The notes under the pieces are model-generated. The model saw nothing but the letters and a program-made list of their open reading frames with translations. It was not told the origin of the DNA and searched no databases. The translations under genes and the position numbers were made by a program. A stretch of 64,000 nt of DNA, from positions 248,001 through 312,000 of the forward strand of contig JAUSOQ010000043.1 of assembly GCA_030655755.1 (NCBI GenBank), given 5' to 3'. How positions within the stretch are numbered: the stretch's first letter is position 1; each line of letters opens with the position of its first letter. Of the stretch, positions 1,941-21,353 are shown one piece after another. The DNA comes from Coriobacteriia bacterium. Lineage in GTDB: Bacteria > Actinomycetota > Coriobacteriia > Anaerosomatales > Anaerosomataceae.

Positions 1941-2834
1941 TCAGTCGATGAGGCCGATGTGGCGCATGATGCGCGTCAGCTCGGCGGTCTGGTCCTCGTT
2001 GGCCGGGATAAGTGGTAGACGGGTCTTCCCGACCGGGAAACCGACGAGGTCTAGCGCTTCTTTGACCATGATCGGGTTGGCGGTCATGAACAGGGCCTTG
2101 AACAGTGGCATAAGCTCGAGGTGGACCTTGAGTGCGCGCGTGTGATCACCGGTCGCCTGGGCAGTGAGCATCTCGGCCATCTGGGGTCCCACGATGTGGC
2201 TGGCCACGGAGATGACGCCATTGGCGCCGAGGCCCATCATCGGCAGGGTGTCCTCATCGTTGCCCGAAAGCACCTCGAAGCCGACCGGAGCGCCATCGAT
2301 GATGGAAGCGATCTGCGTGAGATTCGAACTCGCCTCTTTCACTGCGACGATGTTCTCGAAGTCCGAGGCAAGGCGTAGTGTCGTTGCGGCCTCGAGGTTG
2401 ACGACGCTGCGTCCGGGGATGTTGTAGAGCACCACGGGAACGTCGATCGCCGAAGCGATCGCACCGAAGTGACGATACATGCCCTCTTGCGGTGGCTTGT
2501 TGTAGTACGGGACGACCGCCATGACGGCGTCCACGCCGAGTCGGACGACCTTCCTGGCGAACGCGACCGAATCGTCGGTGCAGTTGTCGCCTGCGTTGGC
2601 GATGATGGGCGCCTGCCCGTCGACGGCTTCTATCACGGCTTCGAAGAGTCGCAACTTGTCGTCGTAGAACACTGTGGGGGACTCCCCGGTGGTGCCGCAG
2701 ACGACGAGCGCCTCTGTGCCCTGATCGAGGAGTCGCAGTGCAAGTTCCTGTGCACGCGGAAGGTCGAGTTCTCCGTCAGTGGTGAATGGTGTCACCATCG
2801 CGGTCAACAGGCGTCCGAATCTGGGTTCTGTCAT
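1941..2834 (-). CDS. dapA: 4-hydroxy-tetrahydrodipicolinate synthase
   Basis: DapA condenses pyruvate with aspartate semialdehyde, the first committed step to diaminopimelate and lysine. The 297-residue protein is a TIM barrel of normal length. It shows GTTGESPT at 47-54, YYNKPP at 110-115, YNIPGR at 137-142 and the Schiff-base lysine K166 in VAVKEAS. AGGAG lies about seven bases before the ATG. It follows lysC and dapB in the direction of transcription, so three lysine/diaminopimelate steps are grouped. The 125-base gap between lysC and dapA contains no promoter I can defend. Confidence 0.97.
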   Translation of the reverse strand: MTEPRFGRLLTAMVTPFTTDGELDLPRAQELALRLLDQGTEALVVCGTTGESPTVFYDDKLRLFEAVIEAVDGQAPIIANAGDNCTDDSVAFARKVVRLGVDAVMAVVPYYNKPPQEGMYRHFGAIASAIDVPVVLYNIPGRSVVNLEAATTLRLASDFENIVAVKEASSNLTQIASIIDGAPVGFEVLSGNDEDTLPMMGLGANGVISVASHIVGPQMAEMLTAQATGDHTRALKVHLELMPLFKALFMTANPIMVKEALDLVGFPVGKTRLPLIPANEDQTAELTRIMRHIGLID

Positions 2835-2959
2835 GGTGGTTCTCCTACGTGGACAGGCACCTTTTTTGGGTACCGGATGTACGTGTCTATCTGCAGTATT
2901 GTGCCACAGTCCGCACCCACGCGCCGACCATGGTTGCCGAGAAGACAGGGCAGAGGCGG

Positions 2960-4174
2960 TTAATGTGCGAGGTTGAAAGCCTTGTGCAACGCTGAAATGG
3001 CTGCACCAGTGTATTCGGCCGGCACGAGCACTGAGATCGTCGTGTGGCTGTCGGCTGTCTGCAGAACGGTGACCCTTGCCTCGTAGAGCGCCTCCGCGAG
3101 GCGCGCCATGACACCGGGGACGCCGTGCATGCCGGCGCCGACTAAGGTGACCTTCGCGAGATTCGTGCGCACCTCGTAAGAGAGGCCGAGGTCATCGAGC
3201 ACCCTGCATGCGCGGTCGAGGTCTCCGTTGGCGATGGTGAAGACGAGGATCGCACCTGCGGGTGTGAACATGTCGAGTGATACGCCTGCGTCGGCCATCG
3301 CGCGATAGATAAGAGCCTGTGCGCCCATGTGCGCATCGCTGCCCTCTTCGGCCGGAAGTGTGACGCGTATACGCGTGACGCCGGCGGCGTGTGATACGGC
3401 TGTGGCGAGCGCTTGAGGTCGATATGCCGAGATATCCGCGACAAGCGTGCCAGGGTGGTCGGTATAGGTGTTGCGCACACGTATGGCAAGACCACTGGCG
3501 AGTGCGAGTTCAGCGGCGGGCGTATGGACGACGCGAGATCCGTGCCGCGCCATCTGGAAAAGCTCGTCGGCGCGAATGACATCGAGCACCACGGCGTCTT
3601 TGCATGCGCGCGGATCCGCCGTCATGATGCCGTCGACATCCGTGTAGATCTCGACCGCCTCGGCATGCAGGGCCACGCCGAGTGCGCAGGCGGTCGTATC
3701 GCTACCGCCTCGACCGAGGGTCGTCAGACACCCATCGGGGGCGATGCCCTGAAAACCGGCAACGACCGGCACGATCCCGCGTGCGATCGCGTCGAGCAGC
3801 GGAGCCGGGTACACCTCGGCGATATGTGCGTTCTCATGTACCCCGTCGGTGCCGATACCGGCTTCGGCTCCGGTGAAAGCACGACCTTGGATACCGGCGG
3901 CGCGCAACTCATGCGCGACCACTACCGCCGAGATGACCTCGCCGGTCGATGCCAGCAAGTCGCGCTCCCGTTCATCCGGAGGCATGCCTTCCACCAGGGA
4001 AAGCAGGGTGTCGGTCGCATAGGGCGCGCCTGTGCGACCCATGGCCGAGACGACCACGACCGGCGCTGTATCCAGTTCGATGGCCTCAGTCACCCGGCGC
4101 CCGATCGCGGAGCGTCCCTCAGGCGTAGCCACCGATGTACCGCCGAACTTCATGATGATGATACGGTCGTCCAC
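2960..4174 (-). CDS. lysC: Aspartate kinase
   Basis: Aspartokinase phosphorylates aspartate at the entry to lysine, threonine and methionine synthesis. The 404-residue product has the amino-acid kinase domain, with KFGGTSVA at 9-16 and the later TLGRGGSDTTA segment. Tandem ACT domains in roughly the last 140 residues imply allosteric feedback control, the usual arrangement of the family. The start is GTG with GGGGGAG seven bases upstream, and the dapB stop is four bases before it, so translation is probably coupled. A single monofunctional enzyme is seen, with no homoserine dehydrogenase fusion. Confidence 0.96.
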   Translation of the reverse strand: MDDRIIIMKFGGTSVATPEGRSAIGRRVTEAIELDTAPVVVVSAMGRTGAPYATDTLLSLVEGMPPDERERDLLASTGEVISAVVVAHELRAAGIQGRAFTGAEAGIGTDGVHENAHIAEVYPAPLLDAIARGIVPVVAGFQGIAPDGCLTTLGRGGSDTTACALGVALHAEAVEIYTDVDGIMTADPRACKDAVVLDVIRADELFQMARHGSRVVHTPAAELALASGLAIRVRNTYTDHPGTLVADISAYRPQALATAVSHAAGVTRIRVTLPAEEGSDAHMGAQALIYRAMADAGVSLDMFTPAGAILVFTIANGDLDRACRVLDDLGLSYEVRTNLAKVTLVGAGMHGVPGVMARLAEALYEARVTVLQTADSHTTISVLVPAEYTGAAISALHKAFNLAH

Positions 4175-4178
4175 GACG

Positions 4179-4964
4179 CTACTCCCCCATCAGCCGTTCA
4201 AGACCGACGATAAGACCGCTGCGTTCCCTTACCTCGCGAACGGCGAGGATGACGCCTGGCATGAAGCTCGTACGGTCGATCGAGTCGTGTCGCAGGGACA
4301 GAGTCTGACCCTGTCCGCCGAAAAGCACTTCTTGGTGAGCGACGAGACCGGGCAGGCGCACCGAGTGGATGGTGATGTCGTCGACCAATGCGCCGCGCGC
4401 GCCTTCGGCCACCTCGGTCTCACGTCCGGGCGCGGGTGGCACCTCGCGCCGGGTCTCAGCGATGAGATGCGCCGTGCGAAGTGCGGTGCCCGAGGGCGCA
4501 TCAGCTTTACGGTCATGGTGGAGTTCGATGATCTCGACGTGTGGCATGTAGCGCGCCGCCTCAGTCGCGAAGCGCATCATCAACACTGCACCGATCGCGA
4601 AGTTGGGCGCCACGAACAGGCAGGTGCCCTCGGGCACCTCGGCTGCGAGCGCTTCAAGAGCGTCGCTACTGATGCCGGTGGTCCCGACGACACAGTCGAC
4701 TCCGGCGGCCATCGCGATGCGCAGATTCTCGCCCACCACTGTCGGGTGCGTGAAGTCGACGAGGACATCCGCGTCAAAGGAGGCGATCGTGTCGGCCAGA
4801 TCACCCTGCACGAGCAGACTGCTTCCATTGCCGTCGTCGAGTGCGGTTCCGACGCTGGCAGGATCCACTGCGGCGACGACCGCCATATCCGGTTCCGCGG
4901 TCACGGCTTTGACGACCTCGCGGCCCATCTTACCTGCCGCTCCTGTGACAATGACCCGTATCAT
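4179..4964 (-). CDS. dapB: 4-hydroxy-tetrahydrodipicolinate reductase
   Basis: DapB reduces the DapA product using NAD(P)H. The 261 residues start with the nucleotide-binding loop GAAGKMG at 8-14. The catalytic signature ELHHDRKADAPSGTA includes H149, H150 and K153. The ribosome site AGGGGAG is six bases before the ATG. The gene lies between an M16 peptidase and lysC with very short spacers, inside the dapB-lysC-dapA block. Although dapB precedes dapA in transcription order, no ordering constraint on function is implied. Confidence 0.96.
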   Translation of the reverse strand: MIRVIVTGAAGKMGREVVKAVTAEPDMAVVAAVDPASVGTALDDGNGSSLLVQGDLADTIASFDADVLVDFTHPTVVGENLRIAMAAGVDCVVGTTGISSDALEALAAEVPEGTCLFVAPNFAIGAVLMMRFATEAARYMPHVEIIELHHDRKADAPSGTALRTAHLIAETRREVPPAPGRETEVAEGARGALVDDITIHSVRLPGLVAHQEVLFGGQGQTLSLRHDSIDRTSFMPGVILAVREVRERSGLIVGLERLMGE

Positions 4965-16757: not shown

Positions 16758-18485
16758 TCAGGCGAGGGCGCTCCGGGCCTGCTCCAGTAGAACGCTGATG
16801 CGAGTCGCTGCCTCGTTCACGGGGATCGTCTCTCGTTCACCCGTCGCCCGCACCTTCACTTCGATGACGCCGTCGGCCACGCCACGCTTGCCGACAACGA
16901 CCTGGAACGGCCAGCCGATGAGGTCGGCGTCGGCGAATTTCACCCCTGCGCGCTCGTCACGGTCATCGATGACCGTTTCTATGCCGGCTGCGGCCAACGC
17001 TCGCCAGATGGTCTCGGCGACCGGCCATACAACATCGTCCCCCACGGTGAGCGGTACCACTGCGACTTCGAGCGGCGCGACGGCGACCGGCCAGGCGATA
17101 CCGTTCTCGTCGTTGTGTTGTTCGATCACTGCGGCGAGGGAACGGCTGACGCCGACCCCGTAGCAACCCATGATGAACGGACGTTCGTTACCATCCTCGT
17201 CAGCGTACGTCGCACCCATCGATTCTGAGTACTTCGTGCCGAGCTGGAAGACCTGGCTCACCTCGATGCCGCGTGCGCCCTTGAGCGCTGCGTTGCAGAT
17301 GGGACAACCGTCACCGGGTTCGGCGATGACGAGGTCCGACCATAGGCCGATCTCGAAGTCACGCCCGGGCATGGCACCGAAGAAGTGGTAGTCGTCGATG
17401 TTCGCGCCGACGGTCCACGCAACCGTGAGGCGCAACGACTCATCACCGATAACGAGCGCGCCAGCCGGAGGATTCACGGGTCCGAGGGAGCCCTTAGGGA
17501 TGTCGAAGCTCTCGAAGTCGTCCTCCTCGAGAAGCACGACGCCGGGGACAGCGGCATCCGCCTTCATCGCGTTGAGTTCGCGATCACCCGGTACACAGAA
17601 GAAGACGAGCCTACCTTCCGGTGTCTTGCCGGCCATCGTCTTCACCGTGTCGTGCTCGGTCACGTCGAAGGCGCTCGCGAGGTCCGCAATGGTGCGCAGC
17701 CCGGGTGTATGCACCTTTTCCATCGATACAGGCTCAATGGTGGTGGGGTTGCGGGGAACGGCAGTGCGTGCGGCCTCGACGTTGGCGGCCCAGCCACAAT
17801 CACAGTAGACGAGTTCGGCCTCGCCGTTGTCTGCAAGCGCCATGAACTCGGTAGTGACCTTGCCGCCGATCTGGCCGGAATCGGCCTCCACCGGACGATA
17901 CCTGAGTCCGAGTCTTTCGCAGATGCGCCCGTAGGCCCCGGCCATCGCGTCATAGTGCTCTTGGAGGGACTCTTGAGTCGCGTGGAAGCTGTACGCGTCC
18001 TTCATGATGAACTCGCGTCCGCGCAGTAGGCCGAAACGGGGACGCACCTCGTCCCGGAACTTCACCTGGATCTGATACAAGGAGACCGGGAGTTCGCGGT
18101 ATGAACGGAGTTCATGACGCACGGTTGCCGTGATGATCTCCTCATGGGTGGGGCCGAGGCAGAACTCGCGACCGTGACGGTCTTGCAGTCGCATGAGCTC
18201 GGGGCCGTAGTCGCTCCAGCGGCCGGATTCATGCCACAGCTCGGCCGGCTGGACCGCGGGCATCAGCATCTCCTGGCTTCCGATGCCGTCCATCTCTTCT
18301 CGGACGATCTGCTCGATCTTGTGAAGCGATCGCCATCCGAGAGGCAGGAACGTGTAGATGCCGACGGCCGCTTTGCGAATCATGCCTGCACGCAGCAGAA
18401 GACGATGCGAGGCGATCTCGGCCTCAGCAGGATCCTCCTTGAGCGTCGGGACGTAGAGATCGGTCATCTTGAGAGCGACAGCCAT
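16758..18485 (-). CDS. proS: Prolyl-tRNA synthetase, bacterial type with editing domain
   Basis: ProS charges tRNA-Pro. The 575-residue length and architecture are those of the bacterial class II form with an inserted YbaK-like editing domain (roughly residues 240-390). Motif 2 is FRDEVRPRFGLLRGREF, and motif 3 contains GCYGVGVSRSLAA. AAGGAG lies five bases before the ATG. It ends the pyrH-to-proS gene run; about 170 bases of regulatory sequence follow before rimP. Confidence 0.97.
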   Translation of the reverse strand: MAVALKMTDLYVPTLKEDPAEAEIASHRLLLRAGMIRKAAVGIYTFLPLGWRSLHKIEQIVREEMDGIGSQEMLMPAVQPAELWHESGRWSDYGPELMRLQDRHGREFCLGPTHEEIITATVRHELRSYRELPVSLYQIQVKFRDEVRPRFGLLRGREFIMKDAYSFHATQESLQEHYDAMAGAYGRICERLGLRYRPVEADSGQIGGKVTTEFMALADNGEAELVYCDCGWAANVEAARTAVPRNPTTIEPVSMEKVHTPGLRTIADLASAFDVTEHDTVKTMAGKTPEGRLVFFCVPGDRELNAMKADAAVPGVVLLEEDDFESFDIPKGSLGPVNPPAGALVIGDESLRLTVAWTVGANIDDYHFFGAMPGRDFEIGLWSDLVIAEPGDGCPICNAALKGARGIEVSQVFQLGTKYSESMGATYADEDGNERPFIMGCYGVGVSRSLAAVIEQHNDENGIAWPVAVAPLEVAVVPLTVGDDVVWPVAETIWRALAAAGIETVIDDRDERAGVKFADADLIGWPFQVVVGKRGVADGVIEVKVRATGERETIPVNEAATRISVLLEQARSALA

Positions 18486-18559
18486 CGGTTCTCCTTGAGG
18501 GAGTACAGACAGGCGCCGACATCGTCGACGCCCGCCAGACGTTCGGTACGAGAACGGTG

Positions 18560-18952
18560 CTAGCCGATGCCCTGGTCACCCGGGTGATAGGTCTGAAGAA
18601 GCGTATCGCTGTTGGCCGATAGGCTCATGATCAGGCGGGCGACGAGGTCATGCACGATCAGCGTGTGTCGATTGTCCTGTGCGACGAACGCGTCTTTGAG
18701 CGCAGGCGTGACAGAGGGATCACCGCTCACTTCGATGATGAGATCGATGTCGTTGCCTCTGGCGGCGAGCACGTCCGCGTTCTCGGTGTAGAAGATGCCG
18801 TTCGCGCGAGCGGTCTGCGCTCCCTGGCTGTCGGAATCGGCGTCAGCCAGGCCGACGACCTCGATGAACGGGCGCTTGAGGAAGTCCTCGAGCAGCGGTG
18901 TACCGGTACGGCCACCCCCGACGATCGCTATACGAATCTTGTCCTGAGCCAT
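18560..18952 (-). CDS. Small stand-alone Rossmann dinucleotide-binding protein, unknown function
   Basis: The 130-residue protein begins MAQDKIRIAIVGGGRTGTPL, a clear beta-alpha-beta nucleotide-binding loop. An acidic residue at the end of strand 2 (VVGLADADSD) would fit NAD binding, and the segment DLIIEVSGDPSVTPAL follows. The pattern resembles the N-terminal domain of Gfo/Idh/MocA or homoserine-dehydrogenase-like oxidoreductases, and the dinucleotide-binding modules attached to some sensor kinases. There is no catalytic C-terminal domain. I cannot assign a reaction. The start at ATG 18950-18952 has GAGGGG five bases upstream. It sits between ispG and proS in the same direction. Confidence 0.8.
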   Translation of the reverse strand: MAQDKIRIAIVGGGRTGTPLLEDFLKRPFIEVVGLADADSDSQGAQTARANGIFYTENADVLAARGNDIDLIIEVSGDPSVTPALKDAFVAQDNRHTLIVHDLVARLIMSLSANSDTLLQTYHPGDQGIG

Positions 18953-19027
18953 GCTGTCCCCTCTCGCCGAATACGGGCTCACGTACGGTAAGCAGGATAC
19001 CAGGAGTGCAGGTCTGCTGCTATAAGA

Positions 19028-20089
19028 TCAGTTTCGGTCAAGATCGGCGATCTCGTCCATGAGCGCAGAGACGATCTCGTTCTCGCCGACCTTTCTGATC
19101 GGCTCGCCCTTACGGAAGATGAGGCCCACACCTTTACCGGCCGCCACGCCGATGTCGGCATCGCGTGCCTCACCGGGGCCGTTGACGATGCAACCCATCA
19201 CTGCGACCTTGACCGGTGTCTTGATGCTGCGAAGTCGCTGTTCGACCTCCTGGGCGATTGCAACGAGGTCGACCTCGCAACGGCCGCATGTGGGGCAGGA
19301 GATGAGCTCGGGCCCCCTGCGCCGGATGTCGAGTGCGGCGAGGATCTCCCAGGCCACGCGTACTTCCTCGACGGGGTCGGCGGTCAACGAGACGCGCATC
19401 GTATCGCCGATGCCGTCATAGAGCAGGACACCGAGTCCCACTGCGGACTTCACCGTCCCCGAGAACGAGGTCCCGGCTTCGGTGACTCCGATATGCAGCG
19501 GGTACGGCAGCGTGCTGGCAAGGGCGCGATAGGCGTCTATGGTGGCGTTGACCGAGGAAGCTTTTGCAGACACGACGATGTCTTTGAAGCCGCGATCCTG
19601 GAAATGGTTGCAGAAAGAGACGGCGCTCGCGACGAGTTTCTCGGCAAGAGGCCAGTCTTTGTCGTGGTACTCGTCGGCCAAAGAGCCGGCGTTGACGCCG
19701 ATACGAATTGGGATCCCGGCCTCGCCAGCTGCGTCTATCACAGCATCCACCCGCTCGGTCGCACCGATGTTGCCGGGGTTGATGCGCAGTTTCGCAGCAC
19801 CTCGGTGTGCGGCCTCGATAGCGAGCCGGTGGTCGAAGTGGATGTCGGCGATCACCGGTAGCGGGGACTGTGCGCAGATGCGTTCGAACCCATCGAGCGC
19901 ATCGGCATGAGGGATCGCAACGCGGACGATCTCGCAACCGGCCTCGGCAAGACGGCGGATCTGTACGAGTGTCGCTCCAGGATCACGGGTGTCGGTGTTC
20001 GTCATCGACTGGACGCTCACGGTGGCGCCGCCACCGATCACGACGTCGCCGACAAGCACCGGACGGGTCTCACGACGTGGCGTTACCAA
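19028..20089 (-). CDS. ispG: (E)-4-hydroxy-3-methylbut-2-enyl-diphosphate synthase
   Basis: IspG (GcpE) catalyses the penultimate MEP-pathway step with a [4Fe-4S] cluster. The 353 residues have the SVQSMTNTDT motif near the start, the TIM-barrel segment, and cluster ligands C265 and C268 (SCPTCGRC) and C300 with E307 (GCIVNGPGEA). The start codon appears to be TTG at 20087-20089 with GGGGAG about four bases upstream. No ATG or GTG lies between it and the conserved TRPVLVGDVVIGGG segment. It follows rseP by 16 bases and belongs with dxr upstream. Confidence 0.95.
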   Translation of the reverse strand: MVTPRRETRPVLVGDVVIGGGATVSVQSMTNTDTRDPGATLVQIRRLAEAGCEIVRVAIPHADALDGFERICAQSPLPVIADIHFDHRLAIEAAHRGAAKLRINPGNIGATERVDAVIDAAGEAGIPIRIGVNAGSLADEYHDKDWPLAEKLVASAVSFCNHFQDRGFKDIVVSAKASSVNATIDAYRALASTLPYPLHIGVTEAGTSFSGTVKSAVGLGVLLYDGIGDTMRVSLTADPVEEVRVAWEILAALDIRRRGPELISCPTCGRCEVDLVAIAQEVEQRLRSIKTPVKVAVMGCIVNGPGEARDADIGVAAGKGVGLIFRKGEPIRKVGENEIVSALMDEIADLDRN

Positions 20090-20105: not shown

Positions 20106-21353
20106 CTATCCGACCAGACGTGCGATATCAGCGTACATGATGTATCCGATGAAGGAGAACAGTAGCAGCGCCCCCGCTGCGCTCAGACCGATCGAGATCG
20201 AGCGGCTGAGGGATCGTCCCATGATTCGCTCGATGACCTCCACGAGGACTTTCCCGCCGTCGAGAGGCGGTATAGGGAGGATGTTCATCGCGCCGAGTGA
20301 GAGCGAGAGCAGTGCGATCAAGAAGGCGTAGTCGAGCGGACTGGTCGTCGCCGCTTCGGCTGCCATGATCGATATGCCGACGATGCCGGCGGATTGGCCG
20401 ACGCTCTGCTGGAAGGTCGCCGGCTGGAAGAAACCGCCGATCGCCTTGAAGACGAGTCCGACGTAGCTGAGCGATTCACCGAGCGCTCCGGCGACCGACA
20501 ACTTGATGTGCGTCCATGTCGGCGCCACGCCCAGATAGGCGCGCCCGTTTTTCGCGGCAAGCGTGACGTCAAAGGTGAGTGGCGTCGAGTCGCGCAGTAC
20601 CGTGATAGTGACGTCAGTTCCCGGGTCGAAGGTGGCCACGGTCTCGCTGAACGCCTGCCAGGAGTCGACCTGCACGCCGTCGATGGCCGAGAGCGTGTCC
20701 CCCACCTGCAGGCCGATTGTCTCGGCCGGGGTGTTAGGCATGACTTCGGAGACTACGGGCATGACTAGATAGTAGCCCCAGATAGCGAACACGAACGTGA
20801 ATGTCAGGATCGCGGTAAGCATGTTGACTGCGACTCCCGCAGTGAGCACGGTGATGCGTTTCCATGTCTTGGCGCCCCGGAATGTGATGGCTCTAGCTGC
20901 CGAGAGGAGCTCGTGCTCATCGGTGTCTACAGTCGCCGTGTGAAGCGACACGTAGGAGGCATCATCGTTTGGTGTGGCCTCGATAGCTCCCCAGTCGGCT
21001 AGTGTTGCGAGCAGTGCGGAGGCGCGATCGCGCTCGACCCCGATCATACGAGCGAGCGAGGCGGCATCCGCGCGCCCTGTTATCGAGATGGACTTGAGCG
21101 CGGGGCCGAGGAGTTCGTCTTCCGGGCCGGGTTCCATACCGGCGATACGGACGTAGCCTCCGAGCGGTATGGCGGTTATGCCCCACGTCATGTTCTTGGT
21201 CGTGATGCGGATGGCCGGGCCAGGCAATCCGATCATGAACTCGTGGACCTTGATCTTGAAGGCGCGTGCCGCAAGGAAGTGGCCGCCTTCATGCAAGATC
21301 ACGAGTATAGAGAACGTCACTATGCCCCAGAACACGGTTGTCACAACTGTCAT
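20106..21353 (-). CDS. rseP: RIP zinc metalloprotease RseP with inserted winged-helix-like segment
   Basis: RseP-type site-2 proteases cleave membrane-bound regulators within the bilayer. The 415-residue protein has the first membrane helix with HEGGH at 21-25, GGYVRIAG at 65-72, a PDZ domain at roughly 200-285, and the second metal motif in NILPIPPLDGG before the last membrane helices. Unusually, about 75 residues (80-158) between GGYVRIAG and the AKTWKR segment form a soluble insert. It reads like a helix-turn-helix or winged helix (DAASLARMIGVERDRASALL, then a strand-rich part). The ATG has only a weak GGATAG ahead. Neighbours dxr and ispG are the typical context. Confidence 0.93.
   Translation of the reverse strand: MTVVTTVFWGIVTFSILVILHEGGHFLAARAFKIKVHEFMIGLPGPAIRITTKNMTWGITAIPLGGYVRIAGMEPGPEDELLGPALKSISITGRADAASLARMIGVERDRASALLATLADWGAIEATPNDDASYVSLHTATVDTDEHELLSAARAITFRGAKTWKRITVLTAGVAVNMLTAILTFTFVFAIWGYYLVMPVVSEVMPNTPAETIGLQVGDTLSAIDGVQVDSWQAFSETVATFDPGTDVTITVLRDSTPLTFDVTLAAKNGRAYLGVAPTWTHIKLSVAGALGESLSYVGLVFKAIGGFFQPATFQQSVGQSAGIVGISIMAAEAATTSPLDYAFLIALLSLSLGAMNILPIPPLDGGKVLVEVIERIMGRSLSRSISIGLSAAGALLLFSFIGYIMYADIARLVG

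Follow-up and report, generated by a model that had tools for sequence, protein, structure and literature searches.

Gene X between ispG and proS encodes a free-standing Rossmann protein of an unnamed family of signalling domains, probably a redox or nucleotide sensor

Introduction

Among described proteins, the acylating acetaldehyde dehydrogenases come closest to the protein analysed here, their NAD domain (1nvm, 4jn6, 4lrs) being its best match in both sequence and fold. These enzymes also use CoA. The Gfo/Idh/MocA oxidoreductases (PF01408) have the type of Rossmann domain in common with it, and a GxGxxG loop combined with an invariant aspartate in strand 2 is typical of NAD sites. An analogue for the use of a Rossmann domain as a redox sensor is provided by Rex, an NADH/NAD+ sensing repressor (PMC8836258). 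The gene considered below, X, encodes a stand-alone Rossmann protein of 130 amino acids and lies in a window (the whole stretch of DNA that was analysed) of 64,000 nucleotides.

Results

Gene X occupies positions 18560–18952 of the window (minus strand, stop codon included) and consists of 130 codons plus stop with an ATG start, just before which a Shine-Dalgarno-like GAGAGGGGA was read from the sequence (18957–18965, minus). Its upstream neighbour is ispG (GcpE; 19028–20089, minus; Pfam GcpE, E = 3.8e-143) and its downstream neighbour proS (16758–18485, minus; Pfam tRNA-synt_2b, tRNA_edit and HGTP_anticodon). The three genes are co-directional, with gaps of 75 bases between ispG and X and 74 bases between X and proS, and a scan of positions 18350–19200 for promoters and terminators found none. 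An M50/RseP-like protease is encoded at 20106–21353 (minus), its M50 match being spread over residues 10–399 with a profile of 221 positions; it carries about 100 extra residues, winged-helix-like by eye, before the PDZ domain (198–265), and a similar protein is encoded at 285–1574 of locus L103.

The dinucleotide-binding loop of X reads GGGRTG (GxGxxG; codons of residues 12–17 at 18902–18919, minus), and strand 2 is closed by the acidic residue D37 (codon at 18842–18844, minus). The Pfam search returned only a sub-threshold match to GFO_IDH_MocA (E = 1.1e-4, 23.3 bits against a cut-off of 24), and a second domain was found neither by Pfam nor in the AlphaFold2 model, which is a single Rossmann domain ending at residue 130. 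The first-pass annotation, which had described a free-standing Rossmann protein of the dinucleotide-binding type without a catalytic domain, thus agrees with the loop, the strand-2 aspartate and the domain content.

The AlphaFold2 model was built from six sequences (pLDDT 80, pTM 0.72) and has five strands, the last of which is followed by a long helix (residues 102–121; codons at 18590–18649, minus). The C-terminal tail HPGDQGIG (HPxDxG[IV]G; residues 123–130, codons at 18563–18586, minus) was modelled at low confidence, with a mean pLDDT of 54 in the last block. The top solved-structure matches of the model were acylating acetaldehyde dehydrogenases and Gfo/Idh-type enzymes (1nvm_D: Z 11.9, 112 residues, rmsd 3.9), so that the modelled fold of X is a Rossmann fold closest to the NAD domains of dehydrogenases. 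For the histidine kinase (HK) module of locus L008, whose model drew on sequences from the same set of six proteins, the best match was again 1nvm_D, and a long helix leads out of the domain.

Full-length X without internal stop was present in 28 of the 41 genomes of the relatives search (own genome counted), the orthologues obtained there being 54–85% identical to the X of the window. Across 13 orthologue pairs, dN/dS ranged from 0.023 to 0.233; a 14th pair was identical, probably because one genome was read twice, and forms no part of this range. X is therefore no chance ORF, and it is under purifying selection. In the order to which the window probably belongs (Anaerosomatales/OPB41), 43 of 69 genomes carry X and 26 lack it, the X of two carriers being divergent and relocated; its length is nearly uniform (about 129–135 amino acids, 153 in one). 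An alignment of 42 rows, probably representing 41 genomes (L006 and L054 are identical and probably one genome; the L054 row is one residue short at its start), was prepared with the repeats L005 and L009 (of L015 and L004) dropped and the relocated copies of genomes G082 and G137 left outside. Invariant in all rows were A9, G12, G14, R15, P28, D37, G44, A45, A48, D70, G77, L85, A88, N94, I99, D102, R106, L118, H123, P124, D126, G128 and G130, and the HPxDxG[IV]G tail was likewise present in 42/42 rows. Residue 17 is G in 40 rows and A in two, and position 38 is basic in 25 (R in 13, K in 12), the next of its five commonest residues being A (4), V (4) and T (3). Given the invariance of the acidic D37, NAD(H) is a likelier putative ligand than NADP(H); the basic residue at position 38 could also suit NADP(H). 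At L103 (positions 2738–4628; G089), X is present in two tandem copies, each together with the first part of proS; the two X proteins, of 129 amino acids, are identical, and the arrangement may reflect a recent duplication or an assembly artefact.

The order ispG-X-proS was found in 37 of the 43 carriers. Four more (family f12) have X-proS, with no ispG within the ~1.6 kb read upstream, and in two (G082 and G137) X is relocated, following a ychF-like gene in L101. The relocated genes (L101, about 4208–4600; L102, about 3413–3805) have the loop GGSETA and an altered tail as well. Among the 26 non-carriers of the order, ispG was sought in 16 and was not found in one (G027). In 12 of the 15 loci read, proS comes directly after ispG, without a match to X at E 1e-3; another gene follows ispG in two, and the contig ends in one. 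Since ispG-proS is kept by these 12, the ispG-X-proS slot is a habit of this order, and X can be gained or lost without leaving a trace. X does not always adjoin ispG or proS in relatives, the exceptions being the two relocated copies and distant members, and its suggested service to neighbouring pathways is not supported, in view of the non-carriers with ispG-proS, the two moves and the different neighbours of distant relatives.

A profile made from X proteins only (A1) significantly matched domains fused to signalling proteins (domain E-values of about 1e-8 to 1e-20). Profile A3 finds X at E 1.2e-34 but contains X, so that this reverse match is not independent. The own genome holds one other such domain at E 1e-12, in about residues 17–131 of a 497-residue Rossmann-GAF-GGDEF protein (DGC; Pfam; GGEEF motif; L002, 304–1797, minus) encoded in a chemotaxis operon with cheA. 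The corresponding gene also follows cheA- and cheD-like genes in L104–L106 (three other genomes, by eye), and a cheC-like gene was read, also by eye, in L104. Profile searches covered two phyla, Actinomycetota and Desulfobacterota, the latter name being applied, on the basis of L008, to the phylum of genome G297. At E 1e-6, X-profile matches were obtained in 53 of 198 Desulfobacterota genomes, some of whose shorter frames could be ordinary dehydrogenases, and a wider profile at E 1e-9 gave matches in 27 of 296 Actinomycetota genomes, where frames of 300–360 amino acids may be ordinary dehydrogenases. Ten Desulfobacterota matches, several of them cut by the locus end, were scanned with Pfam and comprised HisKA and HisKA_3 kinases, PAS/GAF proteins, a GGDEF domain with HD, a LuxR-type HTH with GAF-GGDEF and one PAS-sigma-54 activator. 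The likeness to kinase-attached modules of another phylum that had been noted at first pass is accordingly borne out by a homologous domain on Desulfobacterota histidine kinases, although X and the HK modules of L007 and L008 share only 31% identity, and the homology reaches beyond kinases to the GGDEF protein of the own genome. The other members of the family make up the N-terminal part of HKs, of GGDEF proteins and of one sigma-54 activator. Tandem pairs of Rossmann domains were seen in L082, L088 and L090, followed by PAS and HisKA in L088 (Pfam), and the L082 gene lies near HdrB/HdrC-like genes (by eye). No dedicated model for the input domain was found in Pfam or NCBIfam and no description of it among the literature matches listed; the word 'Rossmann' does not appear in the main text of PMC1592074, PMC5847659 or PMC11887813.

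When 36 domain members were compared with Pfam, 24 matched GFO_IDH_MocA at E 0.01 and three matched CoA_binding (best 8.5e-7). Across the 36 rows of the family alignment, G12 never varies and G14 hardly does, and the third loop glycine is replaced by A or C in GGDEF members and many HK members, so that the ligand may differ within the family.

At E 1e-20, 12 of 395 Desulfobacterota genomes were matched, 11 of which hold a stand-alone protein; two matches are fused proteins, one of them in a genome that also has a stand-alone. One further stand-alone occurs in another actinobacterial class (G728). In unrooted trees of 51 rows (24 stand-alone and 27 fused domains, in all a part of those found), made without outgroup and without four near-copies, the stand-alones of both phyla formed one clade apart from the fused domains, with support of 100/98 for all columns and 95/92 without insert columns. 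An earlier tree with a distant outgroup placed the stand-alones of the two phyla in two separate clades, and its backbone was unresolved. Their union in one clade makes the free form look like an old design and not a broken kinase. The HPxDxG[IV]G tail recurs in 4 of 12 distant stand-alones (that of G728, at L147, and Desulfobacterota L149, L150 and L151), and the tail-sharing proteins are 39–45% identical to X across phyla. The other eight Desulfobacterota stand-alones end differently, seven of them in GY, and the strand-2 acidic position is Glu in 8 of the 11 from that phylum.

Neighbours of distant stand-alones were recognised by eye where they lay outside the Pfam scans. A divergent 2-oxoglutarate dehydrogenase E1 gene lies roughly 600–800 bases from the X homologue in L150 and L151, with a small ORF in between (Pfam-checked in L151), and probably also nearby in L149. 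In G728, V-ATPase genes follow the stand-alone member; in L142, the genes of an NtrY-type kinase and its sigma-54 regulator follow it on the same strand after 213 bases; and in L146, spermidine-synthase-like, decarboxylase-like and then ispG- and proS-like genes are nearby (by eye). Other neighbours are leuS in L143 and cytochrome-like genes in L145 and L148. The redox- or energy-related neighbours of the family (2-oxoglutarate dehydrogenase, NuoE-like, HdrB-like, V-ATPase) were spotted by inspection.

Co-occurrence of X and the DGC was scored in the 69 genomes of the order after sorting by hand, short frames at known X places being taken as X and long ones (235–932 amino acids, most ~500) as DGC, of which L002 alone was Pfam-scanned. 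Both were present in 41 genomes, X only in 2, DGC only in 13 and neither in 13 (Fisher p = 1.7e-5, unadjusted for kinship), and the 13 genomes with DGC alone and the two with the reverse show X to be no obligate partner of the DGC. Mapped onto an ispG+proS tree with 55 genomes (one from outside the order and 54 from the 69), X requires a minimum of 10 gain or loss events and the DGC 5; a kinship-aware test yielded 5 independent pairs on supported branches (10 on all), among which the DGC hardly varies, and co-occurrence is thus suggestive in the raw counts and not in this test. As a control, canonical CheA (E <= 1e-11) was found in 51/69 genomes, 50 of which have the DGC, so that any link between X and DGC may be one to the chemosensory system. 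Cultured Anaerosomatales are described as non-motile and piliated (PMC9686372), so that the chemotaxis operon of L002 may control pili if the genome of the window belongs to the Anaerosomatales.

Discussion

X corresponds to the Rossmann portion of an enzyme of the acetaldehyde-dehydrogenase/Gfo-Idh type and lacks the catalytic portion. It is best classed with an unnamed family of signalling Rossmann domains, as a free-standing member and probably a redox or nucleotide sensor. The specific reading that we prefer, and to which we give an even chance, is that of a single-domain, diffusible sensor or adaptor for a dinucleotide, probably NAD(H), that acts in trans. X would bind a dinucleotide, more likely NAD(H) than NADP(H), and ligand occupancy or redox state would shift its long C-terminal helix. 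In fused relatives, the matching helix appears to run towards the output domain; in X, it ends in the conserved HPxDxG[IV]G tail, which could dock on a partner in trans. One candidate among possible partners is the Rossmann-GAF-GGDEF protein of the chemotaxis operon. In favour of this reading are the homology to fused signalling proteins, the NAD-binding dehydrogenases as nearest structures of both models, the invariant cofactor loop, the common clade of the stand-alones, the tail shared between phyla, purifying selection, the kinase pair next to the stand-alone of L142 and the redox or energy genes near some members. Against it speak the frequent basic residue at position 38, the replaced third glycine of fused relatives, the CoA_binding matches, the low identity of the HK modules, the absence of X from 26 genomes of the order, its gains or losses on the tree and the stand-alones that lie near leuS, spermidine-synthase-like or cytochrome-like genes.

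An adaptor that senses CoA, acyl-CoA or another nucleotide in place of NAD(H) would fit the identity of the nearest enzyme family and the CoA_binding matches of three of the 36 members, and is nevertheless rather unlikely, as X combines GxGxxG with an invariant strand-2 Asp and the NAD-binding GFO_IDH_MocA model is matched by 24 of them at E 0.01. X might instead be a structural regulatory subunit, a module for protein contacts in which the fold persisted and ligand binding was lost. This is suggested by the invariance of D102, R106 and the tail, which equals that of the loop, and by the change of both loop and tail in the two relocated copies; it appears quite unlikely in view of the retention of G12 and G14 in all 42 rows and, nearly so for G14, throughout the wider family.

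That X serves IspG or ProS specifically, as a small regulator or an accessory factor, is suggested by its position in 41 carriers (37 and four) and by the distant stand-alone of L146, where an ispG-like gene stands ~1.7 kb away and is followed by a proS-like gene (by eye); we consider this very unlikely in view of the 12 non-carriers that retain ispG-proS, the two moved copies and the different neighbours of the other Desulfobacterota stand-alones whose surroundings were read. Scarcely credible is the view that X is what truncation left of a former oxidoreductase or Rossmann-signalling protein: X does lack any catalytic or output domain, yet its length is near-uniform, its C-terminus conserved and its stand-alone clade cross-phylum. 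A remnant decaying in relatives, the outcome that would have overturned the initial interpretation, was rejected, the orthologues being full-length and the dN/dS values as low as given above.

If X is a diffusible sensor, this small free protein of two phyla offers a simple handle on an input-domain family of HK and GGDEF proteins. At 130 residues it should express easily, which opens the ligand question to direct settling for the whole family. A bolder proposal, which we regard as tentative and on balance doubtful, sees in X the prototype of an ancient family of free NAD(H) redox sensors that spans phyla; its members would signal in trans through a conserved C-terminal docking tail, alongside kinases and c-di-GMP enzymes carrying the fused form. 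If true, cytosolic redox input domains of this kind make up an entire class that has so far lacked a name.

Compared with the known systems, X matches the NCBIfam acetaldehyde dehydrogenase model over residues 3–73 (E 3.3e-6), whereas its equivalog score is 23.1 bits against the 282.25 required and covers residues 5–75 only; a catalytic domain is absent, and the chain closes with a single helix and a tail of 8 residues. Relative to the Gfo/Idh/MocA oxidoreductases, it lacks the C-terminal substrate/catalytic domain, and its near-miss Pfam score leaves it below the curated cut-off. The match to the Rex model is weak (E 0.056, residues 4–71, 12.6 bits against 226) and confined to profile positions 97–165, and X has no DNA-binding domain. 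The Rossmann input domains of HK, GGDEF and sigma-54 proteins are homologous to X over the domain, where the majority pattern reads D-x-N-P-x-A-P-G following strand 2 and DLIIExTG at strand 4 and its surroundings; X differs from them in being free, in four extra residues before strand 5 and in its HPxDxG[IV]G tail.
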